A stretch of 64,000 bases of DNA from Sipunculus nudus (lineage: Eukaryota; Annelida; Sipuncula; Golfingiida; Sipunculidae): NCBI GenBank assembly GCA_026874595.1, contig CM049308.1:11187501-11251500 (forward strand). Reading direction: 5' to 3'. The notes under the pieces were generated by a model that saw nothing but the letters and a program-made list of their open reading frames with translations, had not been told where the DNA came from and searched no databases. Within the stretch, counting starts at the first letter, position 1; every line of letters begins with the position of its first letter. Of the stretch, positions 24,355-55,568 are shown piece after piece. Position numbers and translations under genes: made by a program.

Positions 24355-25640
24355 TCACTCATGTTGAAATGCCAGTCTCTTTGACGAATGTTGCCGTGCG
24401 TTGAAGATCCTTCCGATTGACGTAGAGTTTTCTTCCCAAAAATGTTGCCTAAGATCCTTGTATGAGGAGCATTCTTGCAGCAAACGCGGTGTTGTCGTGC
24501 TGCTGGTCTTGTAGGGGCAAAAGTAGGACTTGCCGATCAGGAGCTATGTGAATAGGTAATAGTTTATACGGTTGTTGTTTGTGCGCAGTCTAGATATATA
24601 ATCACCTGCTCAGATTTGGTAAGCAGATAGAAAGGATCCACTATGTTGTATTTGGGGTACTCCTGTATCCATTTACTGTGCTGCCTGACATTGGTAATTG
24701 TTTTTATTCAATTTTATACAAATTGTCTTCCTGTTGTTTAGTTGTTCCACCCTTGGCTAGACTGCTATATTATTACCAATTACTTTGCAATGCGATGGTA
24801 TGCACTGCACAGTGACTCTGGCGAGTATGCCTAAGAACGCAAGAGTAGAAATCAGGTCATCCAATTCTTCATCCCTTGCAAGTCTGGAGGCTCAGGACGG
24901 ACAGGGCATCTTTCAGGAACACTACATTGTTGGGCCTGTTTCGGCTATGTTTAACATGGACTGTACCTGTCTTAATGGCCACTACTTTTGGTTTGAATTT
25001 TGTAGAATAACAGTCGGCAGCGAGGGAGAACCTTACTTCTCTTCCTCCTGGGTACTTAATGTAGATTCCGGCGGCCTCATTTCTGAGCTGACTGCCTGTT
25101 CAGCGTAGCTATCTGTGTACACATGGGTCCAGCTATCTTGCGGGAAGTTGTTGCAGATGTGCTCCATGGTGTAAGACTTCTTTTTTCAGTACTGCCCCGA
25201 GTCTTTTTTTTTGCCAACATCGGAGATGCCACAATGAATCAGGGGAGAAATCATTCCACTGCAAGCAGGGTTCCCAGGTGCGTCTGGGATCACAACAGGG
25301 TCTTGATCCACAGGCTCTTGCTGTTTTTTTTTTTTTTTTCGAGAATCCTTTATTGGTTTTAAGCCTCCCCCTTTCAGTCTTCCCCTTTTTGGCTGTGACA
25401 TTGTATCCCTCATTCGGTGTCCTGCGAGTCTTCTGAACCTTGCACAAGAAGTTTGGTGTTTATGGTCCGCAAGCGATTCAAGCCCTGTGATGGTCTCCAG
25501 TTCTTTTATTTGTGTTATTTCCATGGCTCCAGTAATGAGTCTGTATGTTTGATTCTGTACCCTATTAATGTTATACGTTACACCAGTGCGTTCTGCTGAA
25601 TCACAGCAAGTCTTGTACAACACGTTGATGGCAAGAAATG
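24355..25640 (-). pseudogene. Decayed LINE 3' part with RNase H-like remains (Jockey-type)
   Basis: On the minus strand, broken by frameshifts and stops, I can read NRVQNQTYRLITGAMEITQI (about 25565-25500), then SWTHVYTD and AEQAV, GIYIKYPGGREVRFSLA, DALSVLSLQ, CIPSHCKVIG, RLRTNNNRINY, and YKDLRQHFW. In that order these match the end of the reverse-transcriptase region, an RNase H domain (YTD and PSHC motifs) and the C-terminal tail of Jockey-like LINEs. An A-run in the gene sense (25321-25340) and an unrelated stretch interrupt it. This is an inactive relic; the 107-codon plus-strand frame over it is antisense. Confidence 0.75.
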
Positions 25641-25960
25641 AAACTCAAGAGTTTCAATCTTCATTGCCCTTGTACAACGCATTCTTGACATACCATGGCA
25701 GCCAGAAAGCCAAACTTGGAGGTGCTTGATAGGGCTCGCTCACCATTAAGCATGTTGTGCCAGAGGGGTCTCCAGTGGCTTGGCTACGTTCACCGATGGG
25801 GGACTACCGAATCCCAGAAGTAATGTTGGCAGAAGGATGAGGAGAGCAGAGAGAAATCACTTGACCCCTTATGATGATCCTCAAAGACTGACTGACCGAC
25901 CACGCCACTACCTTTGTCTCCTGAGGCAGAAGGACCAGAACGTTGTGCCATTCCGGCTCT
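25641..25960 (+). pseudogene. Decayed LINE reverse-transcriptase C-terminus, opposite strand
   Basis: Reading plus-strand frames gives WQEMKLKSFNLH, then KPNLEVLDRARSPLSMLCQR and GLQWLGYVHRWGT. This resembles the widespread LINE tail motif NLEVLERA-(I)PSMYTLL-QRRLRWLGHV-RM. The match decays after about 25830. Together with the minus-strand relic it makes a head-to-head pair of LINE fragments. Confidence 0.6.
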
Positions 25961-32657: not shown

Positions 32658-35600
32658 CAAGTGACCCATGGGTCATGACGCTCAGCTGACTGGGAAGAGA
32701 TTCACAAAAGGAAATTTTATCACCAGAATGGTAGTATATACCCATTCAACTGAAGCATCAAACAGATTAACCAACAGGCCAAGATTTAGTCTGTATTTAT
32801 ATATCTCAAAAATAGAGAAAAATGTGTAAACTTTTAAAACTAGAATACGGGTAACCGACAAGTGACTACATGTATCTGCCAAAATCGGATAGTGAGGCAT
32901 GGATTGAGTGGCAAGGGGAAATAGAGTGAGGTATGTTGCATATTAGCATGGATGTCTGCAGCCTAAATGTGTATGTAGGTTGTGCCACCTACCACAAATC
33001 CAGAAATCTGTCCAAGTTGTATACACCTGCAAAATTTTAGGCAGAAAAGTCAAACCACTACATGTATATGAGCGATTTTTGCCCATGGCAGACAAACAGA
33101 CAAACACCGTGCAAAAATCTTTGCAGGTAACCCCTCCAGTTTTGTGTATGATAAAGACCTATGTGAGATCTAAACACATGCACAATTTTGGCCCAATCGG
33201 TCAAATGGTTCCTGAGATATGAGGTTGGATGTGTCCAGCGTTAACTAGAATGTAGGTGGCGCCACCTGTCATAAAATCAAGAAAGCTGTCCACGATGTAT
33301 TAACCTGCAAAATTTTAGGCAGTTATGTCGAACCACTACAGAGAAATGAGTAATTTTAGGCCACGGCAGACTAACAGACAGACGCTGTGCAAACATTGTT
33401 ACAGGTGGCGCCACCATTTTTTGTGTATGTTACAGAGCTATCAAAGGGCTACATTTGTATAAATTTTATTTCCTGATCGGTCAAACGGTTCCCGAGATAT
33501 AAGCTTGGATGTCATCAGCATGAACGTGAACATAGGTGGCGCCACCTGTCATAAAATCAAGAAAGCTATCCTGGATGTATACACATGACGAATTTCAGGT
33601 GAATTAGTCAATTCACTGCAGAGATATGAGTGATTTTAACCCAAGGCAGATGAACAGATGGACACTGTGCAAACATGGTTACAGGTGGCGCCACCATTTT
33701 TTGTGTATGTTATAAAGCAATCCAAGGGCTACATTTGTATCAATTTTATTTCCTGATCGGTCAAACGGTTCCCAAGATATGAGGGTTTATGAGTAGAAAC
33801 AGACCCACAAATGGACACTGGATAGAGAGGAAAGGTCAGAGGTCAATGCAAATTGGTTAGGCACCAGTTCACATGTGACCCGATAATAGGTGTAAGTTTG
33901 GGAAAAATCGGTCCATTAGTCTCTGAGGAGCTCTCTGGAAACGAACGCCGCCACGGCGGAGGAACTCGGTCAAAAACATAGTATCCGCAAAACTTCGTTT
34001 TGGCGGATACAAAAATACAGGTGGCTCCACCAGTCTGCAGAAACTAATAAAAACACTTAATGGTCAATATCCATGCAAAAAATCATGGTGATCTCTGCAT
34101 TAGTTGTTCAGATACTTCAGTTTTTGTATCAAATTGTCCATTATTCTGAGGGATACTTCGGAGTCCTATAGCTTGAAGGATATGGGTAACAGAGACCTAA
34201 TTTCAAGTTTCCACAGGCACCTTTCATGGGCCTCCTTGCATGACAAGAATGAAGATTCTAGGTCCAGTTGTTGCGATTTGTATCCTGTTGACAGATAACC
34301 ACATCTTTAAAGGTCTCAAAAAAAAGAAAAAAATTCGTAAAAATTTGAAAAAAAAATAGAGGTGGCACACCCAGTCTGCAGAAACTGATGGAACAGCTCA
34401 TGATCAATATGTATGCCAAAAATCATGACCATCAGTGTTGTAGTTATTGAAATACTGCAGTTTTTGTATCAAATTTTCCATTATTCATGGGGGGGGGGGG
34501 GGGTATTTTGGACCCATACAGCTTAAAGAATATGGGTAACAGAGACCTAATTTCAAGTTTCCATGGAGACTTTTCATGGGTCTCCCTGTGTGTCAAGAAT
34601 GAAGATTCTTGGTCCAGTTTTTATGATTTGTGCCCTGTTAACAGATGTTCACATTTTTAAAGGTCTCAAAAATAGAGAAAAAAATTCGTGAAAAATTGAA
34701 AAATACAGGTGGCGCCACCAGTCTGCAGGAAGTGATGTAACATCTCATGATCAATATGTACGCCAAAAATCATGACCATCAGTCAAGTAGTTAATGAGAT
34801 ATTGAAGTTTTTGTATGAAATTTTTTACTTTTCTGGGAGGTACTTTGGGGCCACAAAGCTAGAAGGATATGAGTAACAGAGACCAAATTTCAGGTTTCCA
34901 TGGAGACTTATCATGGGTCTCCCTGTGTGTCAAGAACGAAGATTCTAGGTCCAGTCGTTACGATTTGTACCCTGTTGACAGATAACTACATCCTTAAAGG
35001 TCTCAAAAATGGAGAAAACAATTTGTGAACATTGAAAAATACAGGTAGCGCCACCAGTCTGCAAAAACTGATGAAACATCTCATGATCAATATGTATGTC
35101 GAAAATCATGACCATCAGTGATGTAGTTAATGAGATATTGAAGTTTTTGTATGAAATTTTTGACTATTCTGGGGGGTAATTTTGGGCCCCATAGCTCAAA
35201 GGATATGGGTAACAGAGACCTAATTTCTGGTTTCCATGGAGACTTTTCATAGGTCTCTCAGTGTGTCGAAAATGAAGATTCTAGGTCCAGTCGTTACGAT
35301 TTGTGCCACGCTAACAGATGACAGCATCCTCAAAGGTCTCAAAAATAGAGGAAAAAATCGTAAAAAATCAAACGGTACAGGTGGCGCCACCAGTCTGCAG
35401 GAACTGATCGAACATCTCATGATCAATATGTATGCCAAAAATGAAGACCATCAGTGATGTAGTTATTGAGATATTGAAGTTTTTGTATGAAATTTTTTAC
35501 TATTCTGGGGGGTACTTTGGGGCCCGATAGCTCAAAGGATATGGGTAACAGAGACCTAATTTCTGGTTTCCAAGGAGATTTTTCATGGACCTCTCAGTGT

Positions 35601-36077
35601 GTCAAGAATTAAGATTCTAAGTCCAGTCTTTATGATTTGTGTCTTGTTAACAGATGTTCACATTTTTAAAGGTCTCAAAAATAGAGAAAAAAATTCGTAA
35701 AAAATTGAAAAATACAGGTGGCGCCACCAGTCTGCAGGAAGTGATGTAACATCTCATGATCAATATGTATGCCAAAAATCATGACCATCAGTCAAGTAGT
35801 TAATGAGGTATTGAAGTTTTTGTATGAAATTTTTGACTTTTCTGGGGGGTACTTTGGGGCCCCATAGCTCGAAGGATATGGGTAACAGAGACCTAATTTC
35901 TGGTTTCCAAGGAGATTTTTTATGGACCTCTCAGAATCCCAAGTTACAAGGTTCTAGGTCCAGCAGTTACGATTTGTGCCTGGTTAACGGACGGACAGAC
36001 GGACAGACGGACAGACGGACGACGGACAAAGAGTGATCGCTATAGCTCAGATGACTTTCAGTCAGCTGAGCTAAAAA
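32658..36077 (+). mobile_element. Hairpin-ended composite element, copy A (3.4 kb)
   Basis: The left end is CAAGTGACCCATGGGTCATG, then ACGCTCAGCTGAC. The right end is AGCTCAGATGACTTTCAG, then TCAGCTGAGCTAAAAA, which folds into a hairpin (AGCTCAG-TGACT / AGTCA-CTGAGCT). The inner left part (32830-34013) matches the 41061-42778 element. The inner right part (34014-36000) has about six tandem units of about 338 bp, each starting near AGGTGGCGCCACCAGTCTGC. A GACGGACAGACGG tract sits just inside the right end. All open frames are short and repeat-derived. The terminal structure resembles Helentron-type non-autonomous elements (HINE); this is an inference. Confidence 0.65.
34014..36000 (+). repeat. 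Tandem units of about 338 bp with GGTGGCGCCACC
   Basis: Units start near 34018, 34362, 34701, 35040, 35379 and 35715. Each has the palindrome or a variant, then ATCTCATGATCAATATGTATG, GATATGGGTAACAGAGACC, GAAGATTCTAGGTCCAG and TTAAAGGTCTCAAAAATAG-type words. There is a poly-G tract at 34490-34503 in one unit. Non-coding. Confidence 0.8.
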
Positions 36078-37202: not shown

Positions 37203-37317
37203 CTTCTGATGGAACATCTAGGTCAATTTTTATATCAAAATCATGGACTGCAAAGAGATCATGTGACTGCTGCCCCCCTCTGTCATCATTCCTGCCTTTA
37301 CTGCCTGGGTCACCATC
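37203..37317 (-). CDS. RTF1: RTF1 exon k: HDLFAVHDFDIKIDL segment
   Basis: A 115-nt exon between acceptor CTCAACAG and donor GTAATG. It encodes DGDPGSKGRNDDRGGQQ and then SHDLFAVHDFDIKIDLDVPS and E plus one base. The DLF-VHDFD(V/I)KIDL motif is conserved near the RTF1 C terminus. It starts in phase 0 and ends with one base completed by the last exon. Confidence 0.94.
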
Positions 37318-40340: not shown

Positions 40341-41450
40341 CAATAAAATGGCCTGTTACACATATAACACAATATACACAATCATGAGAATAACTTAAAG
40401 AGGTACAACTGGTGTTCATCCCATTCAGCTGTTCAGAGGAATATAGCATTATTACAAGTTTCTACAAAATCATGTGCAATCTCAAAACAGTGCATAAAAC
40501 AAGCCAGGTATTGAGTGCTCATGTAACATGCATATATAACAATGTAACAGCATGAAGCATACAAGAAGTCGTGTGAAAACTAATCTATGTATCTAACTAT
40601 ATACAAGATCATGCAGGTTCAAACTCAAGGCTACCGGTACCTTTCTGTAGTTCACCCAGTCTTTCCGGCCTTCCTGTATTTGGGAAACAGAAACCAAACC
40701 ATATCCATATTAACAAAGTAAACCACCACCCATATCCCCTTAAATAATTTGTATTTCCAATTCTAACGTGCAATTATGTGAACCACAAATAAAAACATAA
40801 CTGAACTAAAATAAACTTATCTGGAGGAAAATTTACTAAAAATAAACCACTTGTTTAAAATCAAAATCTGATTTCTCTTCACATGACAAATGAAAATTAG
40901 ACTTTCCTAAATGACACTTTCACTGATCTTAAGATATAAAGAATTATATCAAATTTAAGAGCTGAAAATATTCAAAATGATTTGCAAATTATTCCTGATT
41001 TGAAGTTAGGTATTATGGACAAGATACAAGTGAAAAAAAAACATGGTAAATAAATATAAGAACTAGAATACGGGTAGTCGACAAGCGACTACTTGTATCC
41101 GCCTAAATCAGAGTGGAACGGGTGAAGTGTTGCATATCAGCATGGATGTCTGCAGCCAAATTGTGTATGTAGGTTGCGCTACCTACCAAAAAATCCAGAA
41201 AGCCGTCCAAGTTGTATACATATGCAAAATTTAAGGCAGATAAGTCAAACCACTATATTGTATATGAGTGATTTTTGCCCTTGGCAGACAAACAGATGGA
41301 CGCTGTGCAAAAAAGGGTTGCAGGTGGCGCCACCAGTTTGATAAAGTATGAACAAGAGCTTTGTGAGAACTCTACACATGCAAAATTTTGGCCCAATCGG
41401 TCAAACGGTTCCCTAGATATGAGCTTGGATGTCTGCAGCGTAAACTTGAT

Positions 41451-42450
41451 TGTAGGTGGCGCCACCTGTCATAAAATCAGATAAGCTATCCAGGATGTAT
41501 AAGCATGCAGAATTTCAGGTGAATTAGTCAAACCACTGCAGAGATATGAGTGATTTTAACCCAAGGCAGACGAACAGCTGGACACTGTGCAAACATGGTT
41601 GCAGGTGGCGCCACCATTTTTTGTATATGTTATAAAGCTCTCTAAGGGCTACATTTGTGCAAAAAAATTTTCCTGATCAGTCAAACGGTTCCTGAGATAT
41701 GAGCTTGGATGTCTGCAGCGTAAACGTGAATGTAGGTGGCGCCACCTGTCATAAAATCAGAAAAGCTATCCAGGATGTATACGCATGCCAAATTTCAGGT
41801 GAATTAGTCAAGTTACTGCAGAGATATGAGTGATTTTAACCCAAGGCAGACAAACAGATGGACACTGTGCAAACATGGTTGCAGGTAGCGGCACCATTTT
41901 TGGTGTATGTTATAAAGCTCTCCAAGGGCTACATTTGTGCAAAAGAATTTTCCTGATCGGTCAAACGGTTCCCGAGATATGAGCTTGGATGTCTGCAGCG
42001 TAAACGTGAATGTAGGTGGCGCCACCTGTCATAAAATCAGATAAGCTATCCAGGATGTATACGCATGCCAAATTTCAGGTGAATTAGTCAAGTCACTGCA
42101 GAGATATGAGTGATTTTAACCCAAGGCAGACGAACAGATGGACACTGTGCAAACATGGTTGCAGGTGGCGCCACCATTTTTGGTGTATGTTATAAAGCTC
42201 TCCAAGGGCTACATTTGTGCAAAAGAATTTTCCTGATCGGTCAAACGGTTCCAGAGATATGAGCTTGGATGTCTGCAGCGTAAACGTGAATGTAGGTGGC
42301 GCCACCTGTCATAAAATCAGAAAAGCTATCCAGGATGTTTGCGCATGCCGAATTTCAGGTGAATTAGTCAAGTCACTGCAGAGATATGAGTGATTTTAAC
42401 CCAAGGCAGACGAACAGATGGACACTGTGCAAACATGGTTGCAGGTGGCG
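41451..42450 (+). repeat. 280-bp tandem array, about 3.5 units
   Basis: TGTAGGTGGCGCCACCTGTC recurs at 41451, 41731, 42011 and 42291, exactly 280 bp apart. Each unit has a second palindrome, TGCAGGTGGCGCCACCATTT (mutated in the unit near 41883), so palindromes alternate about 150 and 130 bp apart. Units are nearly identical, implying recent unequal exchange. Confidence 0.9.
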
Positions 42451-42707
42451 CCACCATTTTTGGTGTATGTTATAAAGCTCTCCAAGGGCTACATTTGTGC
42501 AAAAAAATTTTCCTGATCGGTCAAACGGTTCCCGAGATATGTGGGTTTATGTGTGGAAACAGACGCACAAACGGACGCAGAGCCCAGAGGAAAGGTCAGA
42601 GGTCAAAACAAAATCGGGGCGCAGCAGTTCACATGTGACCCGAACATAATCCAGGGTTTCTGAAAATTCCACCCAGCGGTTACGGAGGAGTTCTCCGGAC
42701 ACCTACG

Positions 42708-42731: not shown

Positions 42732-44310
42732 CCAGCTGAAAACATAGTATCCGCAAAACTCTGTTTTGGCGGATACAATTAATATTCTTGGAATTTCAAG
42801 CTTAAACATATAAATCCCATATTCATAAACACAAAATAAAACTTTTGGAAGAATTATATCTTGATTCAAGCGTGTGGTGCAAGCCTCCCTGATGCTTTTT
42901 CAAGCCAACCGAAGAAACATGGGCTGTTGTTGGTAAAAACATTCTAAGGGAGACAAAGTATACAGTGCATATTTATAGAGCATCTATTCAGTTATTTCTT
43001 TAATTGTTCAATTCTTCCATAGTCCTTTTTTCTTATACAGGTTTTAAGATGTCATGCTGAATTGCTGGTCAGATGTGATGGGAGTTACATATCTCTTGAA
43101 TTAATTACTTCACAACCTAATTGTCACCCTAACAGCAAGGGATTAGTGGTAAGAATGTGGTTTTCAGCCCCTAGTGTACTATTGAGTCTACTGCCCCCCC
43201 CCCCCCCCCCCCCCCCCTCTCCCGGGCACTACCCCAATTATTATAAAAGCTGCACTTAACTAACAACCTTTAAATGACAGACCAGTGATACATGATTAAC
43301 ATGGGTTAACCTGTAACATTATGTTATGTAGGGTGTGGTCAGTGGTTGGGTTATAGAGTAAGCCTTAAAGATTTGTTAGTAACCCATCCTATATGATATA
43401 TATACGAATATAACCTGTAGTAAATAACTCAAATCCCCAATCATCATCATTGCTGTATGTTTGTTTAACCAAAAGAGTCTAGAACATTACAAAAGGATGA
43501 CAATTCAAGGGATAATTTGGCTAAATTATTAGGATCTTGACCAACCACTCATATGTTAAGGAATGATTGAGGAAAAGTGTTATGACTGTGACAAATCACT
43601 GTTATCTTCTGGGACTTTTGGGTCAAATTATTATGACTGGGACAGCTCATTGGTATACTTAGTGATACTTGGGTTTAATTAAGATGACTTAGCAGATTAT
43701 TGATAAACTTAGGGATAAACTGAAGACTGGGTATTTTAGGAAAATTTGGGTAAAAATATGACTGGGCAGATCACCAAGACAAATCACTGATATACTTTGG
43801 GATAACCTGGAACATATCACTTGCATTCTGGTACATTGTAGAAAATTACACAAATCACTTATAAACTAAAGTATTATTGCAATATATCACTATTATATTA
43901 AAAGATATTTGAAACATATCACTGATACACTTTCAGATAACGTGGACAGATCACTGATACACTTAAGGAAATCTGAGACATATGACATATATACACAGAG
44001 ATGACTAGGTCATATCAATGATATACCTACAGATAACTCATACACTGGGAATAACTGGTAAAAACTTAATAACTAAGACATCACAGATATACTAAGGGAT
44101 AAGTGGGCTTGATTAATGATACTTATTTTCACTGGAATAGATAACTAATACACTGAATAACTGTTTAAATTAATCTGATTTGAAAAGATTGCCGATTGGT
44201 TAATGTGGATATTATTTTATTCTGAGATAATGCAGTGAAGCATAATTTATGTCAATTCAAGGTATAATATTCAGACAACTATCAGCGAGAATTATAGTCA
44301 AGGTTCTTAC

Positions 44311-44397
44311 ATGAGGATTAGCTTTGGCCAATTCCTGTTGCTCAGCTTCTTTCTGTTTCTCCTGATCTGCAAGCTTCTCCACTTGTGCCCGCGTACT
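44311..44397 (-). CDS. RTF1: RTF1 exon j: poorly conserved linker exon next to the minisatellite
   Basis: An 87-nt, phase 0-0 exon after acceptor TTTTTTATCAG, with donor GTAAGA. It encodes STRAQVEKLADQEKQKEAEQ and QELAKANPH, a charged, probably helical or disordered linker. It lies where vertebrate RTF1 has a longer variable stretch, and alignment here is weak apart from a possible match to the SRDP-VQ region. The first 21 nt (44377-44397) and the acceptor are nearly identical to the minisatellite units in the upstream intron. Skipping this exon would remove exactly 29 residues without a frameshift. I infer that it is a real exon from open frame, phases and splice sites; transcript data were not available. 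Confidence 0.8.
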
Positions 44398-44455
44398 CTG
44401 ATAAAAAACAAAGTAATTCATAAACACTCCAATTGTGCCTGCTAAGTCTGATAAA
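44398..44455 (-). repeat. Exon-proximal unit of the splice-site-like minisatellite
   Basis: One unit (CATAAACACTCCAATTGTGC, then CTGCTAAGTCTGATAAA on the plus strand) lies directly next to the exon-j acceptor, before mobile element copy B begins at 44456. It ties the large array to exon j. Confidence 0.85.
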
Positions 44456-47400
44456 CAAGTGACCCATGGGTCATGACGCTCAGCTGACTGGGAAGAGATT
44501 CATAAAAGGAAATTTTATCATCAGAATGGTAGATACCCATTCAACTGAAGCATCAAACAGAACAACCAACAGGCCAAGATTTAGTCTGTATTTATATATC
44601 TGAAAAATAGAGAAAAAATGTGTAAACTTTAAAAACTAGAATACGGGTAGCCGACAAGTGACTACGTGTATCTGCCAAAATCAGAGTGAAGTGAGGCATG
44701 GATTGAGTGGCAAGGGGAAACAGAGTGAGGTATGTTGCATATTAGCATGGATGTCTGCAGCCTAAATGTGTATGTAGGTTGTGCAACCTACCACAAATCC
44801 AGAAAGCTGTCCAAGTTGTATACATATGCAAAATTTTAGGCAGAAAAGTCAAACCACTGGATATGAGTGATTTTAGCCCACGGCAGACAAACAGACAGAC
44901 GCTGTGCAAAAATGGTTGTAGTTTTGTGTATGATAAAGACCTATGTGAGATCTAAACACAAGCACAATTTTGGCCCAATCGGTCAAATGGTTCCTGAGAT
45001 ATTAGCTTGGATGTGTGCAGCGTTAACTAGAATGTAGGTGGCGCCACCTGTCATAAAATCAAGAAAGCTATCCAGGATGTATAAACCTGCAAAATTTTAG
45101 GCAGATATGTCAAACCACTACAGAGAAATGAGTGATTTTAGGCCACGGCAGACCAACAGACAGACGCTGTGCAAAATGTGCAAAAATGGTTGCAGGTGGC
45201 CCCTCCAGTTTTGTGTATGATAAAGACCTATGTGAGATCTATACACATGCAAAATTTAGCCCAATCGTTCAAACGTTTCCGAGATATGAGCTTGGATGTC
45301 TGCAGCGTGAATGAGAATGTAGGTGGCACCACCTGTCATAAAATCAAGAAAGCTATCCAGGATGTATACGCATGCCGAATTTCAGGGGAATTAGTCAATT
45401 CACTGCAGAGATATGAGTGATTTTAACCAAAGGCAGATGAACAGATGGACACTGTGCAAACATGGTTACAGGTGGCGCCACCATTTTTTGTGTATGTTAT
45501 AGAGCTATCCAAGGGCTACATTAGTATAAATTTTATTTCCTGATCAGTCAAACGGTTCCCGAGATATGAGCTTGGAAAGCTGATAAAATCAAGTCCCACA
45601 GGAGCTCTCTGGAAACGAATGCGGCAACGGCGGAGGAACCCGGTCAAAAACATAGTATCCACAAAACTTCGTTTTTGCGGGTACAAAAATACAGGTGGCT
45701 CCACCAGTCTGCAGAAACTAATAAAAACACTTACAAACATCAATATCCATTCAAAGAATCATGGTGATCTCCCCATTAGTTGTTCAGCTTTTGTATCAAA
45801 TTGTCCATTATTCTGAGGGATACTTCGGAGTCCTATAGCTTGAAGGATTGAAGGATATGGGTAACAGAGACCTAATTTTAAGTTTCCACAGGCACTTTTC
45901 ATGGGCCTTCTTGCATGACAAGAATGAAGATTCTAGGTCCAGTTGTTGCGATTTGTACCCTGTTGACAGATAACCACATCTTTAAAGGTATCAAAAAAAG
46001 AGAAAAAAAATCGTAAAAATATGTAAAAATAGAGGTGGCGCACCCAGTCTGCAGAAACTGATGGAACAGGTCATGATCAATATGTATGCCGAAAATCATG
46101 ACCATCAGTGTTGTAGTTATTGAGATACTGCAGTTTTTGTATCAAATTTTCCATTATTCTGGGGGGTAATTTGGAGCCATACAGCTTAAAGAATATGGGT
46201 AACAGAGACCTAATTTCAGGTTTCCATGGAGACTTTTCATGGGTCTCCCTGAGTGTTAAGAATGAAGATTCTAGGTCCAGTTTAATGATTTGTGCCCTGT
46301 TAACAGATGTTCATAACTTTAAAGGTCTCAAAAATAGAGAAAAAATTCGTAAAAAAACCCGAACAAATACAGGTGGTGCCACCAGTCTGCAGAAACTGAT
46401 GAAACACTCCATGATCAATATCCATGAAAACAATTATGGTGATCTCTGCATTAGTTGTTCAGATACTTCAGCTTTTGTATCAAATTTTCCATTATTCTGA
46501 GCTGTACTTTGGAGTGCCATAGCTCAAAAGATATGGGTAACAGAGACCTAATTTCAGGTGTCCATGGAGACTTATCATGGGTCTCCCTGTGTGTCAACAA
46601 TGAAGATTCTAGGTCCAGTCCTTACGATTTGTACCCTGTTGACAGATAACTACATCCTGAAAGGTCTCGAAAATAGAGAAAAAAAAATTGTGAAAATTTG
46701 AAAAAATACAGGTGGCACCACCAGTCTGCAGGTACTGATGAAACACCTCTTGATCAATATGTATGCCAAAAATCATGACCATCAGTGTTGTAGTTATTGA
46801 GATGTTGCAGTTTGTTTTTATCAAATTTTCCATTATTCTGGGGGGTTATTGGGAGCCCCCCATAGCTCAAAGGATAGGGGTAACAGAGACCTTATTTCAG
46901 GTTTCCATGCAGACTTTTTATGGACCTCTCAGTGTGTCAAGAATGAAGATTCTAGGTCCAGTCTTTATGATTTGTGCCCTGTTAACAGCTGTTCACATTT
47001 TTAAATTCTTAAAAAATCGAAAAATTCAGGTGGCGCCACTAGTCTGCAGGAAGTGATGGAACATCTCATGATCAATACGTATGCAAAAAAAAACATGACC
47101 ATCAGTCAAGTAGTTAATGAGATATTGAAGTTTTTGTATGAAATTTTTTACTTTTCTGGGGGGTACTTTGGGGCCCCATAGCTCGAAGGATATGGGTAAC
47201 AGAGATCTAATTTATGGTTTCCACGGAGACTTTTAATAGGTTTCTCAGTGTGTCGAGAATGAAGATTCTAGGTCCAGCGGTTACGAATTGTGCCACGTTA
47301 ACAGATGACAGCATCTTTAAACGTCTCAAAAATAGAGGAAAAAATTGTAAAAAAAATCAAAAAATACAGGTGGCGCCACCAGTCTGCAGGAACTTATGGA

Positions 47401-48060
47401 ACATCTCATGATCAATATGTATGCCAAAAATCATGACCATCAGTGTTGTAGTTATTGAGATATTGAAGTTTTTGTATGAAATTTTTTACTATTCTGGGGG
47501 GTACTTTGGGGCCCCATAGCTCGAAGGATATGGGTAACAGAGACCTAATTTCTGGTTTCCAAGGAGATTTTTCATGGACCTCTCAGTGTATCAAGAATTA
47601 AGATTCTAGGTCTAGGCTTTACGATTTGTGCCTTGTTAACAGATGTTCACATTTTTAAAGGTCTCAAAAATAGAGAAAAAAATTTGTAAAAAATCGAAAA
47701 ATACAGGTGGCGCCACCAGTCTGCAGGAAGTGATGGAACATCTCATGATCAATATGTATGCCAAAAATCATGACCATCAGTCAAGTAGTTAATGAGATAT
47801 TGAAGTTTTTGTATGAAATTTTTGACTTTTCTGGGGGGTACTTTTGGGCCCCATAGCTCGAAGGATATGGGTAACAGAGACCTAATTTCTGGTTTCCAAG
47901 GAGATTTTTCATGGACCGCTCAGAATCCCAAGTTACAAGGTTCTAGGTTCAGCGGTTACGATTTGTGCCTGGTTAACGGACGGACAGTCGGACAGACGAA
48001 CAGACGGACAAAGAGTGATCGCTATAGCTCAGATGACTTTCAGTTAGCTGAGCTAAAAAA
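44456..48060 (+). mobile_element. Hairpin-ended composite element, copy B (3.6 kb)
   Basis: It has the same ends and order as copy A: CAAGTGACCCATGGGTCATG at the left, an internal GTATCCGCC-type part to about 45684, then tandem units of about 338 bp, a GGACGGACAGTCGG tract and the hairpin end GCTCAGATGACTTTCAG-TTAGCTGAGCTAAAAAA. It is more diverged from A and C than they are from each other. It sits inside the minisatellite, after the word CTGATAAA. Confidence 0.65.
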
Positions 48061-49243
48061 CCACGCAAATCATGAACACTCCACTTGTGCCAGCTTAGTC
48101 TGATAAAAAAACAATGTAAGTCATAAACACTCAACTTGTGCCTGCTAAGTCTGATTAAAAAAACATATTAAGTCATAAACACTCCCCTAGTGCCTGCTTA
48201 GTCTGATAAAAAAAACAAAGTAAGTCATAAACACTCCACTTGTGCCAGCTTAGTCTGATAAAAAAACAAAGTAAGTCATAAACACTCAACTTGTGCCTGC
48301 TAAGTCTGGTTAAAAAAACAAATTAAGTCATAAACACTCCACTAGTGCCTGCTTAGTCTGATAAAAAAAACAAAGTAAGTCATAAACACTCAACTTGTGC
48401 CTGCTAAGTCTGATTAAAAAAAAAAATAAAGTCATAAACACTCCACTAGTGCCTGCTTAGTCTGATAAAAAAAACAAAGTAAGTCATAAACACTCCACTA
48501 GTGCCTGCTAAGTCTGATTAAAAAAAAACAAATTAAGTCATAAACACTCCACTTGTGCCTGCTTAGTCTGATAAAAAAAACAAAGTAAGTCATAAACACT
48601 CCACTTGTGCCTGCTAAGTCTGATTAAAAAAACAAAGTAAGTCATAAACACTCCACTTGTGCCCACGTACTCTGATAAAAAAAACAAAGTAAGTCATAAA
48701 CACTCCACTTGTGCCTGCTTAGTCTGATAAAAAAACAAAGTAAGTCATAAACACTCCACTTGTGCCTGCTTAGTCTGATAAAAAAACAAAGTAGGTCATA
48801 AACACTCCACTTGTGCCTGCTTAGTTTGATAAAAAAATCAAAGTAAGTCATAAACACTCCACTTGTGCCTGTGTACTCTGATAAAACAACAAAGTTAGTC
48901 ATAAACACTCCACTTGTGCCTGCTTAGTCTGATAAAAAAACAAAGTAAGTCATAAACACTCCACTTGTGCCTGCTTAGTCTGATAAAAAAACAAAGTAAG
49001 TCATAAACACTCAACTTGTGCCTGCTTAGTTTGATAAAAAAATCAAAGTAAGTCATAAACACTCCACTTGTGCCTGTGTACTCTGATAAAACAACAAAGT
49101 CAGTCATAAACACTCCACTTGTGCCTGCTTAGTCTGATAAAAAACAAAGTAAGTCAAAAACACTCCACTTGAGCCTGCTTAGTTTGATAAAAAAATCAAA
49201 GTAAGTCATAAACACTCCACTTGTGCCTGCTAAGTCTGATAAA
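48061..49243 (-). repeat. Minisatellite of about 51 bp, block 1 (about 23 units)
   Basis: Plus-strand unit: AAAGTAAGTCATAAACACTC, CACTTGTGCCTGCTTAGTCT, GATAAAAAAAC. In RTF1 sense this is GACTTACTTTG, a T tract, ATCAG and ACTAAGCAGGCACAAGTGG. It matches the exon-j acceptor and the first 21 exon bases (44377-44400). Unit length varies by 1-4 bp through the A/T run. Reading frames through it are 17-residue repeats and are not proteins. Confidence 0.95.
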
Positions 49244-52200
49244 CAAGTGACCCATGGGTCATGACGCTCAGCTGACTGGGAAGAGATTCGCAAAAGGAAA
49301 TTTTATCATTAGAATGGTAGTATATACCCATTCAACTGAAGCATCAAACAGATTAACCAACAGGCCAAGATTTAGTCTGTATTTATATATCTCAAAAATA
49401 GAGAAAAATGTGTAAACTTTTAAAACTAGAATACGGGTAACCGACAAGTGACTACATGTATCTGCCAAAATCGGATAGTGAGGCATGGATTGAGTGGCAA
49501 GGGGAAATAGAGTGAGGTATGTTGCATATTAGCATGGATGTCTGCAGCCTAAATGTGTATGTAGGTTGTGCCACCTACCACAAATCCAGAAAGCTGTCCA
49601 AGTTGTATACACCTGCAAAATTTTAGGCAGAAAAGTCAAACCACTACATGTATATGAGCGATTTTTGCCCATGGCAGACAAACAGACAAACACTGTGCAA
49701 AAATCTTTGCAGGTAACCCCTCCAGTTTTGTGTATGATAAAGACCTATGTGAGATCTAAACACATGCACAATTTTGGCCCAATCGGTCAAATGGTTCCTG
49801 AGATATGAGCTTGGATGTGTGCAGCGTTAACTAGAATGTAGGTGGCGCCACCTGTCATAAAATCAAGAAAGCTGTCCACGATGTATAAACCTGCAAAATT
49901 TTAGGCAGTTATGTCGAACCACTACAGAGAAATGAGTGATTTTAGGCCACGGCAGACTAACAGACAGACGCTGTGCAAACATTGTTACAGGTGGCGCCAC
50001 CATTTTTTGTGTATGTTACAGAGCTATCAAAGGGCTACATTTGTATAAATTTTATTTCCTGATCGGTCAAACGGTTCCCAAGATATAAGCTTGGATGTCA
50101 TCAGCGTGAACGTGAACGTAGGTGGCGCCACCTGTCATAAAATCAAGAAAGCTATCCTGGATGTATACGCATGACGAATTTCAGGTGAATTAGTCAATTC
50201 ACTGTAGAGATATGAGTGATTTTAACCCAAGGCAGATGAACAGATGGACACTGTGCAAACATGGTTACAGGTGGCGCCACCATTTTTTGTGTATGTTATA
50301 AAGCAATCCAAGGGCTACATTTGTATCAATTTTATTTCCTGATCGGTCAAACGGTTCCCGAGAAATGAGGGTTTATGAGTGGAAACAGACCCACAAATGG
50401 ACACTGGATAGAGAGGAAAGGTCAGAGGTCAACGCAAATTGGTTAGGCACCAGTTCACATGTGACCCGATAATAGGTGTAAGTTTGGGAAAAATCGGTCC
50501 ATTAGTCTCCGAGGAGCTCTCTGGAAACGAACGCCGCCGGGGTGGAGGAACTCGGTCAAAAACATAGTATCCGCAAAACTTCGTTTTGGCGGATACAAAA
50601 ATACAGGTGGCTCCACCAGTCTGCAGAAACTAATAAAAACACTTAATGGTCAATATCCATGCAAAAAATCATGGTGATCTCTGCATTAGTTGTTCAGATA
50701 CTTCAGTTTTTGTATCAAATTGTCCATTATTCTGAGGGATACTTCAGAGTCCTATAGCTTGAAGGATATGGGTAACAGAGACCTAATTTCAAGTTTCCAC
50801 AGGCACCTTTCATGGGCCTCCTTGCATGACAAGAATGAAGATTCTAGGTCCAGTTGTTGCGATTTGTACCCTGTTGACAGATAACCACATCTTTAAAGGT
50901 CTCAAAAAAAAGAAAAAAATTCGTAAAAATTTGAAAAAAAATAGAGGTGGCACACCCAGTCTGCAGAAACTGATGGAACAGCTCATGATCAATATGTATG
51001 CCGAAAATCATGACCATCAGTGTTGTAGTTATTGAAATACTGCAGTTTTGGTATCAAATTTTCCATTATTCTGGGGGGGGGGTATTTTGGACCCATACAG
51101 CTTAAAGAATATGGGTAACAGAGACCTTATTTCAAGTTTCCATGGAGACTTTTCATGGGTCTCCCTGTGTGTCAAGAATGAAGATTCTTGGTCCAGTTTT
51201 TATGATTTGTGCCCTGGTAACAGATGTTCATATCTTTAAAGGTCTCAAAAATACAGAAAAATTTCGTAAAAAAAACCGAACAAATACAGGTGGAGCCACC
51301 AGTCTGCAGAAACTTATGAAACACTCCATGATCAATATCCATGCAAACAATTATGGTTATCTCTGCATTAGTTGTTCAGATACTTTAGCTTTTGTATCAA
51401 ATTTTCCATTATTCTGAGCTGTACTTTGGAGTGCCATAGCTCAAAGGATATGGGTAACAGAGACCAAATTTCAGGTTTCCATGGAGACTTATCATGGGTC
51501 TCCCTGTGTGTCAAGAACGAAGATTCTAGGTCCAGTCGTTACGATTTGTACCCTGTTGACAGATAACTACATCCTTAAAGGTCTCAAAAATGGAGAAAAC
51601 AATTCGTGAACATTGAAAAATACAGGTGGCGCCACCAGTCTGCACAAACTGATGAAACATCTCATGATCAATATGTATGTCTAAAATCATGACCATCAGT
51701 GATGTAGTTAATGAGATATTGAAGTTTTTGTATGAAATTTTTGACTATTCTGGGGGGTAATTTTGGGCCCCATAGCTCCAAGGATATGGGTAACAGAGAC
51801 CTAATTTCTGGTTTCCATGGAGACTTTTCATAGGTCTCTCAGTGTGTCGAAAATGAAGATTCTAGGTCCAGTCATTACGATTTGTGCCACGCTAACAGAT
51901 GACAGCATCCTCAAAGGTCTCAAAAATAGAGGAAAAAATCGTAAAAAATCAAACAGTATAGGTGGCGCCACCAGTCTGCAGGAACTGATCAAACATCTCA
52001 TGATCAATATGTATGCTAAAAATGAAGACCATCAGTGATGTAGTTATTGAAATATTGAAGTTTTTGTATGAAATTTTTTACTATTCTGGGGGGTACTTTG
52101 GGGACCCATAGCTCGAAGGATATGGGTAACAGAGACCTAATTTCTGGTTTCCAAGGAGATTTTTCATGGACCTCTCAGTGTGTCAAGAATTAAGATTCTA

Positions 52201-52650
52201 AGTCCAGTCTTTATGATTTGTGCCTTGTTAACAGATGTTCACATTTTTAAAGGTCTCAAAAATAGAGAAAAAAATTCGTAAAAAATCGAAAAATACAGGT
52301 GGCGCCACCAGTCTGCAGGAAGTGATGTAACATCTCATGATCAATATGTATGCCAAAAATCATGACCATCAGTCAAGTAGTTAATGAGATATTGAAGTTT
52401 TTGTATGAAATTTTTGACTTTTCTGGGGGGTACTTTGGGGCCACATAGCTCGAAGGATATGGGTAACAGAGACCTAATTTCTGGTTTCCAAGGAGATTTT
52501 TTATGGACCTCTCAGAATCCCAAGTTACAAGGTTCTAGGTCCAGTGGTTACAATTTGTGCCTGGTTAACGGACGGACAGACGGACAGACGGACGACGGAC
52601 AAAGAGTGATCGCTATAGCTCAGATGACTTTCAGTCAGCTGAGCTAAAAA
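49244..52650 (+). mobile_element. Hairpin-ended composite element, copy C (3.4 kb)
   Basis: It is almost identical to copy A along its length (for example 49268-49486 versus 32682-32900), with the same inner parts, a short poly-G tract at 51074-51082 and the same hairpin end. It is inserted in the minisatellite after CTGATAAA, and the array resumes directly with ACAAAGTAAGTCATAAAC. Confidence 0.7.
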
Positions 52651-54590
52651 ACAAAGTAAGTCATAAACACTCCACTTGTGCCTGCTTAGTCTGATAAAAA
52701 AACAAAGTAAGTCATAAACACTCCACTTGTGCCTGCTTAGTTTGATAAAAAAATCAAAGTAAGTCATAAACACTCCACTTGTGCCTGTGTACTCTGATAA
52801 AACAACAAAGTCAGTCATAAACATTCCACTTGTGCCTGCTTAGTCTGATAAAAAAACAAAGTAAGTCATAAACACTCAACTTGTGCCTGCTTAGTTTGAT
52901 AAAAAAATCAAAGTAAGTCATAAACACTCCACTTGTGCCTGTGTACTCTGATAAAACAACAAAGTTAGTCATAAACACTCCACTTGTGCCTGCTTAGTCT
53001 GATAAAAAAAACAAAGTAAGTCATAAACACTCCACTAGTGCCTGCTTAGTCTGATAAAAAAATCAAAGTAAGTCATAAACACTCCACTTGTGCCTGCTAA
53101 GTCTGATAAAAAAACAAAGTAAGTCATAAACACTCCACTTGTGCCTGCTTAGATTGATAAAAAAATCAAAGTAAGTCATAAACACTCCACTTGTGCCTGT
53201 GTACTCTGATAAAACAACAAAGTCAGTCATAAACACTCCACTTGTGCCCATGTACTCTGATAAAAAAAAAACAAAGTAGGTCGTAAACACTCCACTTGTG
53301 CCTGTGTACTCTGATAAAACAACAATGTCAGTCATAAACACACCACTTGTGCCCATGTGCTCTGATAAAAAAACAAAGTAAGTCATAAACACTCAACTTG
53401 TGCCCATGTACTCTGATAAAAAAAAACAAAGTCATAAATACTCCACTTGTGCCCATGTACTCTGATAAAACAACAAAGTAAGTCATAAACACTCAACTTG
53501 TGCCTGCTAAGTCTGATTAAAAAAAACAAATTAAGTCATAAACACTCCACTAGTGCCTGCTTAGTCTGATAAAAAAAACAAAGTAAGTCATAAACACTCC
53601 ACTTGTGCCTGCTAAGTCTAATTAAAAAAACAAAGTAAGTCATAAACACTCCACTTGTGCCTGCTAAGTCTAATTAAAAAAAACAAAGTAAGTCATAAAC
53701 ACTCCACTTGTGCCTGCTAAGTCTAATTAAAAAAACAAATTAAGTCATAAACACTCCACTAGTGCCTGCTTAGTCTGATAAAAAAAACAAAGTAAGTCAT
53801 AAACACTCCACTTGTGCCTGCTTAGTCTGATAAAAAAAACAAAGTAAGATATAAACACTCCACTTGTGCCTGCTTAGTCTGATAAAAAAAAACAAAGTAA
53901 GTCATAAACACTCAACTTGTGCCCATGTACTCTGATAAAAAAAAACAAAGTCATAAATACTCCACTTGTGCCCATGTACTCTGATAAAACAACAAAGTAA
54001 GTCATAAACACTCAACTTGTGCCTGCTAAGTCTGATTAAAAAAAACAAATTAAGTCATAAACACTCCACTAGTGCCTGCTTAGTCTGATAAAAAAAACAA
54101 AGTAAGTCATAAACACTCCACTTGTGCCTGCTAAGTCTAATTAAAAAAACAAAGTAAGTCATAAACACTCCACTTGTGCCTGCTAAGTCTAATTAAAAAA
54201 AACAAAGTAAGTCATAAACACTCCACTTGTGCCTGCTAAGTCTAATTAAAAAAACAAATTAAGTCATAAACACTCCACTAGTGCCTGCTTAGTCTGATAA
54301 AAAAAACAAAGTAAGTCATAAACACTCCACTTGTGCCTGCTTAGTCTGATAAAAAAAACAAAGTAAGATATAAACACTCCACTTGTGCCTGCTTAGTCTG
54401 ATAAAAAAAAACAAAGTAAGTCATAAACACTCCACTTGTGCCTGCTTAGTCTGATAAAAAAAAACAAAGCAAGTCATAAACACTCCACTTGTACCTGCTT
54501 AGTCTGATAAAAACAACAAAGTTAGTCATAAACACTCCACTTGTGCCCATGTGCTCTGATAAAAAAACAAAGTCAGTCATATAAACACTG
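52651..54590 (-). repeat. Minisatellite of about 51 bp, block 2 (about 38 units)
   Basis: Same unit as block 1. Several units keep TTGTGCCCATGTACTCTGAT, closer to the exon-j form (GCCCGCGTACTCTG) than the common TGCCTGCTTAGTCTG type. A higher-order duplication of about 519 bp (ten units) is visible: 53384-53902 repeats as 53903-54421. A strongly diverged single unit lies farther upstream in the gene at 54961-55010 (TTTGTGCTCGCATACTCTG). Confidence 0.95.
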
Positions 54591-55432
54591 GTGGTGTGCC
54601 ATTTAATACATTATATTGATGAAGGGAAATTTTCTTTCAAAACCTATTTCAAAACCTGATTGCATTTTTGCATAATTGATCACAAACAATTCTGAAGTCA
54701 TAATACCCTGACAAAATATTCTTATTCTGTCTGAGATATAAGTGTCAGCAAACTTGCCATGACCTTGACTTTTCAGTGTGACGTAAGACTAGACAAAATT
54801 TAATTGGTCAATATTTAGGTATCTATAATTATATACATCACATTTCACACTGATAAAGATGTTACATAAAATACTTCATTAATAATTGTTCATTGGTTAT
54901 TTTCTATCTTTCAATCATAGAATATGCTTTTACAACCAATTCTTACCACTAATAAAAATTCCATTTGTGCTCGCATACTCTGATGAAACAACAAAGTCAG
55001 TAATAAACACAAGTCCGGTTATCATTGAATATAGCTTTGTACCATACATAGGTTTTTGAGCACTAGTTCTTTCAGAACTTTGCCTGCATGTAATTTTTTA
55101 CTGCATATTATTTTTTGCTTCATTTGGGTAAAGCCTCACAACAACACAAATTCAAATTCCTGCTTCACTCATTTATTAATCATCTGAGTAGACAGAAGCA
55201 ATAATAATCTTGAAATGACAGAAAGAAAACACTTGCTTGAGCTTCAACATTTGTGTTATATTAACACAGTTATTAAGATATTGGACAGTATTAGCCCTTA
55301 TTTGTTTATTACTTTTTATAACCAAAGAGCCATTCTTAAATAAAGCTGAATGATTTGTCAACACCTGGCGTAAAAATGAATGATCAAGCCTTAAAAAACT
55401 TGAGAAGGCTTCTATAACCAGTTGTAGCTCAC

Positions 55433-55568
55433 CTTGGTGACCATGGTGGGACGACACTGCCGTCGTGTGAACGGATCAGCTGTAGCTTGCTTCATCTCAG
55501 CTACCTCCTGCTTAGCTGCCTCTTCAGCATCAATGATATTTTTCAACCGATTCCTCTGGTTGATATAA
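55433..55568 (-). CDS. RTF1: RTF1 exon i: SYINQRN to DPFTRRQC segment
   Basis: A 136-nt exon between acceptor TTATTTATAG and donor GTGAGC. It completes Ser and reads YINQRNRLKNIIDAEEAAKQ, EVAEMKQATA and DPFTRRQCRPTMVTK. The DPFTRRQC-PT block is nearly invariant in animal RTF1. The exon ends in phase 0 just before the 11-kb intron that contains the splice-site-like minisatellite. Confidence 0.95.

Follow-up and report, generated by a model that had tools for sequence, protein, structure and literature searches.

The intron that precedes one exon of RTF1 in Sipunculus nudus raises a question about its own boundary: why is it filled with tandem copies of the very 3′ splice site at which it ends, which of the two came first, and what do so many possible acceptors mean for the gene? 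We address this in the window, by which we mean the whole 64,000-nucleotide stretch analysed (contig CM049308.1 of assembly GCA_026874595.1, positions 11,187,501 to 11,251,500 of the forward strand). Tandem, minisatellite-like copies of intron/exon boundaries have been described in the amphioxus Adh, globin and TnC genes under the name ‘mirages’ (PMC3087553, PMC3902484). The reading that we favour, with a probability of roughly three in four, is that the RTF1 array is a mirage that was seeded at the 3′ splice site of the exon here called exon j and expanded locally, and whose decoy acceptors are probably passed over.

The minus strand of the window encodes RTF1. A stretch of the human protein matches exon after exon by tblastn, and the joined exons match RTF1 chains in the PDB and contain a Plus-3 domain recognised by Pfam. 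Each of two RTF1 exons searched for in the 1.43-Gb genome gave a single match there. A homologue search found 656 sequences, of which 120 were listed and 119 printed; 16 of the first 25 listed are named molluscs and one is a brachiopod. The RTF1 tree, built from 42 rows (the window sequence plus 41 homologues from the 120 listed), contained no supported group of up to half of its rows that holds the window sequence, and the highest identity in this set was 75%, to Pecten. Exon j has the look of an ordinary segment of RTF1, though its first residues are unshared. At its place, following DPFTRR, the 119 homologues printed have a variable segment, and STRAQVEKL, with which exon j begins, is absent from all 119 (of 120 listed and 656 found). 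A search with exon j and its neighbour alone returned seven candidates, none at E ≤ 10, and so supplied no exon j start from a close relative. The features of the locus are collected in Table 1.

Table 1. Features of the RTF1 locus and its array, in window positions
Feature	Position	Strand	Basis or remark
Helentron/HINE-like copy C	32658-36071		outside array; own 280/336-bp repeats, no 52-bp units
Next RTF1 exon located, DGDPGSKGRNDDRGGQQSHDLFAVHDFDIKIDLDVPS, phase 0 start	37207..37317	-	tblastn, borders
RTF1 exon j, 87 nt, phase 0-0, STRAQVEKLADQEKQKEAEQQELAKANPH	44311..44397	-	donor CAT/GTAAGA at 44310; one genome match
24-nt border word common to units (21 exon nt + CAG)	44377..44400	-	word and shuffle comparison
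RTF1 intron holding the array, 11,035 nt	44398..55432	-	border analysis
Unit touching exon j	44398..44455	-	runs into exon j; T-tract interrupted by element A
Helentron/HINE-like element A	44456..48053	-	280- and 336-bp tandem repeats, GACGGACA microsatellite, end palindrome; in unit T-tract
Array block 1, 23 units of ~52 bp	48055..49243	-	TRF, core scan
Helentron/HINE-like element B	49244..52644	-	96.5% identical to copy C
Array block 2, 37 units	52646..54581	-	TRF, core scan
Probable old interspersed repeat, ends approximate	54589..54950	.	splits outlier from array
Candidate 33-nt in-frame mini-exon, SMRAQMEFLLV	54947..54979	-	outlier acceptor; donor GTG/GTAAGA at 54946
Diverged outlier unit	54959..55010	-	unit edge GTGTTTAT same as block 2 outer unit
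RTF1 exon upstream of array, ends ...DPFTRRQCRPTMVTK	55433..55568	-	donor AAG/GTGAGC; tblastn with human RTF1, PDB RTF1 match, borders

A unit of about 52 bp occurs 62 times in the intron before exon j, in an array spanning about 10.6 kb. Read in the sense of RTF1, a full unit consists of intron positions −31 to −1 (about 31 nt), then 21 nt resembling the start of exon j, and then intron anew, so that the first 21 nt of exon j are themselves the exon half of the unit and the authentic border forms the terminal part-unit of the array, contiguous and in register with the others. A scan of 44-55.2 kb on the plus strand with a 36-nt core, allowing at most 10 mismatches, recovered 63 places: the exon j border (44369), the unit touching it (44419), the 23 and 37 units of the two blocks and the outlier (54951). 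The first-pass annotation of this DNA had proposed that the unit copies the adjacent splice site, and the 51-nt border of exon j (−30 to +21) does match 62 other places at E ≤ 1e-2, in register. Its two-block layout, its single touching unit and its single diverged unit were likewise recovered, the count of about 61 block units giving way to 60.

The 24-bp match that it had placed across the border does span it, the border lying between 44397 and 44398. Among the units the best match to this word is 23/24 and 44 places in the intron reach at least 20/24, while 200 mononucleotide-shuffled introns reached at most 17/24. Among the located RTF1 borders, none of six other acceptors tested had any match elsewhere at that E-value limit of 1e-2; one of eight donors had three matches, on its GT microsatellite. 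The units are less uniform than first described. The commonest unit agrees with the exon j start at 18 of 21 bases, and two further elements credited to every unit are each present in a part of them: ATCAG in 50 of the 63 places and CTTAC in 38, all 38 being decoys, as the true acceptor has no CTTAC. The AG itself is kept in 57 of the 63 places, the remaining six reading ATCAA.

Mean differences over the core are 3.74/36 within blocks and 9.9/36 between the outlier and the units; the touching unit is only 2/36 from the core, and the blocks are mixtures of two intermingled classes. Block 2 contains an exact 519-bp duplication (53384-53902 and 53903-54421, 0/519 differences), which is either a very recent exchange or an effect of assembly. 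This duplication suggests that assembly might have created the copy number or some of the block structure; we consider such an artefact very unlikely, as units from different blocks show an average difference of 10.4% over the core, and elements A and B, which adjoin the blocks, are only 85-88% alike in their longest aligned pieces.

The unit is restricted to this locus. A two-unit probe searched against the 1.43-Gb genome gave 59 matches, all 59 at RTF1, in a search that scores the best candidates only and skips very common words; the 52-bp unit had no match in an independent 220-kb sample, that is, in none of 22 sampled 10-kb loci. Introner-type elements are introns supplied by a dispersed transposable element, so that the same splice-site-bearing intronic sequence occurs in many genes. 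We rejected this origin, the genome probe having placed the unit at the RTF1 locus only. What the locus does present is tandem units that span a copy of the boundary, a border contiguous and in register with them, and restriction of the unit to its host gene, which are the marks of a mirage. Minisatellite units carrying splice sites reportedly occur also in G1P3/IFI6; the sites there are donors, and those of the RTF1 array are acceptors.

The first-pass annotation knew of no described system of this type. The amphioxus mirages are such a system, and one globin gene among them has exactly this geometry. In BflGb6 (PMC3087553), the 3′ end of an intron and the 5′ part of the next exon are repeated in tandem beside the authentic border, and the splice signals are kept by many copies, not by all. 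The two loci differ in scale: the two BflGb6 haplotypes carry six and three copies, each 150-160 bp long, as against 62 of about 52 bp here, a copy number some tenfold higher. The RTF1 array differs further in its nested transposable elements and in belonging to a spiralian RTF1; BflGb6 has been studied by RT-PCR, and the RTF1 array from its DNA. Tandem repeats overlapping splice sites are also reported in amphioxus Adh3, TnC and PGBD5 (PMC3087553, PMC3902484), which are other genes in another phylum; the unit is 10-72 bp in Adh3, and the boundary repeats of PGBD5, of 60 and 108 bp, are similar but imperfect (PMC3902484). The amphioxus Adh mirage is also reported to be unstable in length.

Related cases come from human segmentally duplicated genes, in which internal tandem repeats lie at exon-intron boundaries (PMC2812944). 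The variable repeats of that study averaged four units of 30 bp over all cases, and novel introns or alternative splicing were reported. Minisatellite expansion at an exon-intron boundary is common to these and to our locus; unlike them, the RTF1 copies lie within an existing intron. The RTF1 array is therefore a real and large mirage and not a new kind of system. It extends the amphioxus phenomenon, with the related human cases, to a spiralian housekeeping gene. Neither a molluscan mirage nor one in RTF1 appeared among the titles found in the open-licence literature, which is weak evidence of absence; what is perhaps new is the size of the array, the nested elements and one decoy followed at 33 nt by a strong donor. 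Boundary repeats have been proposed as a source of new exons and introns, and the array offers a natural test of this idea.

The array is interrupted twice, by elements A and B, each about 3.4-3.6 kb long and each within the T-tract of a unit. These, and copy C outside the array, have inverted repeats near their ends, a GACGGACA microsatellite, central 280/336-bp repeats and an end palindrome, as judged by eye; folded as a single strand, the palindromic end did not go beyond shuffled sequences. Oyster Helentron-type elements are described as having inverted repeats near their ends, a microsatellite of a short motif, central tandem repeats and a 3′ palindrome (PMC7492417), and by eye A and B agree with the Helentron/HINE description in that paper, including insertion into T-rich sequence. 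Elements A and B are either two insertions, or one insertion later duplicated together with the array. The family is abundant in the genome, being present in 16 of the 22 sampled 10-kb loci. Five copies of a 280-bp repeat resembling that of the elements also lie at 41134-42541. Elsewhere in the window, a minus-strand open reading frame at 25186-25644 that had looked like part of a non-LTR retrotransposon had no Pfam match at E ≤ 1e-3.

Both intronic copies abut array units, and Helentron-like elements often carry tandem repeats (PMC7492417), so that the 52-bp array might be taken for the cargo of an adjoining element. This we regard as extremely improbable and have rejected: copy C has its own 280/336-bp repeats and not a single 52-bp unit, and of the 22 sampled loci, 16 have element sequence and none has the unit. 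On the mirage reading, the elements would be later arrivals that landed in the T-tracts of units already present.

The description of the intron as full of acceptor-like sites was sound. Scored with a splice-site weight matrix, 30 of the 62 decoys equal or exceed the true acceptor (24 equal, six higher), with a median of 9.1 against 10.1 for the true site, and of the 31 sites elsewhere in the intron that match or beat the true acceptor in score, 30 are array units. The AG is intact in 56 decoys. Among the 62 we found no signal of selection for or against the AG. The array may be neutral. Use of any decoy, as had been predicted, would lead to an in-frame stop, which is met by all 62: at codon 2 in 16, at codon 10 in 42 and later in four. 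The peptide TKQAQVECL followed by a stop, offered as the general reading, is the commonest one, found in 16 of 62.

Exons are recognised as acceptor-donor pairs (exon definition), and by this logic most decoys should be ignored, because donors are missing. The sense strand of the intron has only two donors with a score of at least 7.8, namely the authentic one and another next to the outlier, and 60 of the 62 decoys have no donor of that strength 12-300 nt downstream. Six of these 60 have a donor of 6.4 within 300 nt, and the other 54 have none above 4.2. A single decoy lies within 300 nt of the donor of exon j, the next being 3,789 nt away. It is that of the touching unit, whose first exon-like base is at 44447, 137 nt from the donor; it would read T and then a stop, and it scores only 6.5 against 10.1 for the true site because element A interrupts its T-tract. 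Exon definition thus probably ignores the decoys, and their rare use would yield stop-containing RNA. With dozens of intact acceptors lying upstream of the true one, and six that score above it, this intron is a natural test of exon definition and of the protection afforded by missing donors.

The same figures could be read in favour of a function. In a splicing attenuator, decoys would capture the upstream donor in some transcripts, which would then either contain a stop or skip exon j in frame, and copy number would tune RTF1 output. That every decoy stops in frame, that so many match or surpass the true acceptor in score and that the CTTAC word occurs in 38 of 62 decoys and is wanting at the real site all agree with such a device. 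Skipping would also keep the reading frame, as exon j is 87 nt long with phase 0 at both ends and the exon at 37207-37317 starts in phase 0, provided that no exon lies between. We nevertheless think it improbable, given the want of a strong partner donor for 60 of the 62 decoys and the loss of the AG in six, all to ATCAA, with selection visible neither way. The authors of PMC3087553 read their data as suggesting that regular splicing is not disturbed, and they mention the possible use of cryptic sites; PMC3902484 states that the Adh and TnC mirages generate no aberrant mRNAs. The amphioxus Adh, globin and TnC mirages are thus reported without disturbance of splicing.

As to which came first, the first-pass annotation had left the choice between growth of the array from the real splice site and capture of the exon start from the repeat. 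The 21 exon-like bases occur as 21 distinct haplotypes. At position 2, 47 of the 62 copies have C (the ACTAAG or ACTTAG kinds) and 15 have the G of the exon. The two outermost copies, at 54527 and the outlier, belong to the G class; 13 of its 15 members are interior to the blocks, however, and the unit next to the exon belongs to the C class, so that an argument from edge position alone was dropped. Nor is the exon the central haplotype, ranking sixth of 21 by summed distance. Within its own class the ACGCGG of the exon becomes ACGTGG, ACACAG, ACATGG or ATGCGA; every change at the two CpGs in these copies is a CpG transition, each departing from the exon in a different way, and exon j is the only sequence that retains both. 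This is what an array seeded at a splice site, beside an exon under constraint, predicts, and the decay pattern moderately favours an array that grew from the splice site, capture being the less favoured of the two. Against it count three further changes in the outlier, which are non-CpG. From these bases we infer that the exon probably preceded the array.

The converse order is that the repeat came first and that exon j acquired its start from the array, either by replacement with the last unit or by a shift into it. The first residues of exon j are absent from the 119 homologues printed, the unit nearest to the exon j start differs from it by one base in 24, the adjoining half of the intron is of the derived type and the touching unit lies outside the class of the exon, all of which capture would accommodate. 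We hold it to be rather unlikely in view of the CpGs, both of which the exon holds and at which the copies of its own class differ by CpG transitions. The unit, moreover, was found nowhere else by the genome probe or in the 220-kb sample, and the stretch of RTF1 in question is variable among the homologues printed. The half of the intron next to exon j resembles derived units and has no CTTAC, and array and border may for this reason have exchanged sequence.

Growth from the splice site would have begun with a local tandem duplication across the 3′ splice site of exon j, from about −31 to +21, and continued by unequal exchange to at least 62 intronic copies, leaving the authentic border as a terminal part-unit. 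The 21 nt of exon j would have kept the ancestral sequence, or one close to it, as the copies lost its CpGs, and the decoys would have been passed over by a machinery that chooses exons as acceptor-donor pairs. At a later stage, an old interspersed repeat would have cut the outermost unit off from the array. The spacer of about 360 bp that now separates this outlier has two collinear matches to one sampled locus (L018:321-380, E 1e-5; L018:512-638, E 0.066), and for that reason is probably such a repeat.

The outlier is also the unit with the strong donor. GTG/GTAAGA stands at the edge of the spacer, 33 nt after the outlier acceptor and in frame with it, and donors of such strength occur at 0.73 per kb on the minus strand of the window, so that chance alone would place one within some 50 nt in a few per cent of cases, as judged post hoc. 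The outlier might be a mirage copy in the course of becoming an exon, inserting SMRAQMEFLLV as an in-frame cassette mini-exon after TK and before exon j, with the other units as a copy-number-variable field of decoys modulating the use of the mini-exon and exon j; we rate this as unlikely. The donor would then sit just where the probable old repeat split the outlier from the array, and the outlier is the best place in the locus for seeking the birth of an exon. Its similarity to the array continues for about another 12 nt, as far as 54947, where a further unit would have followed.
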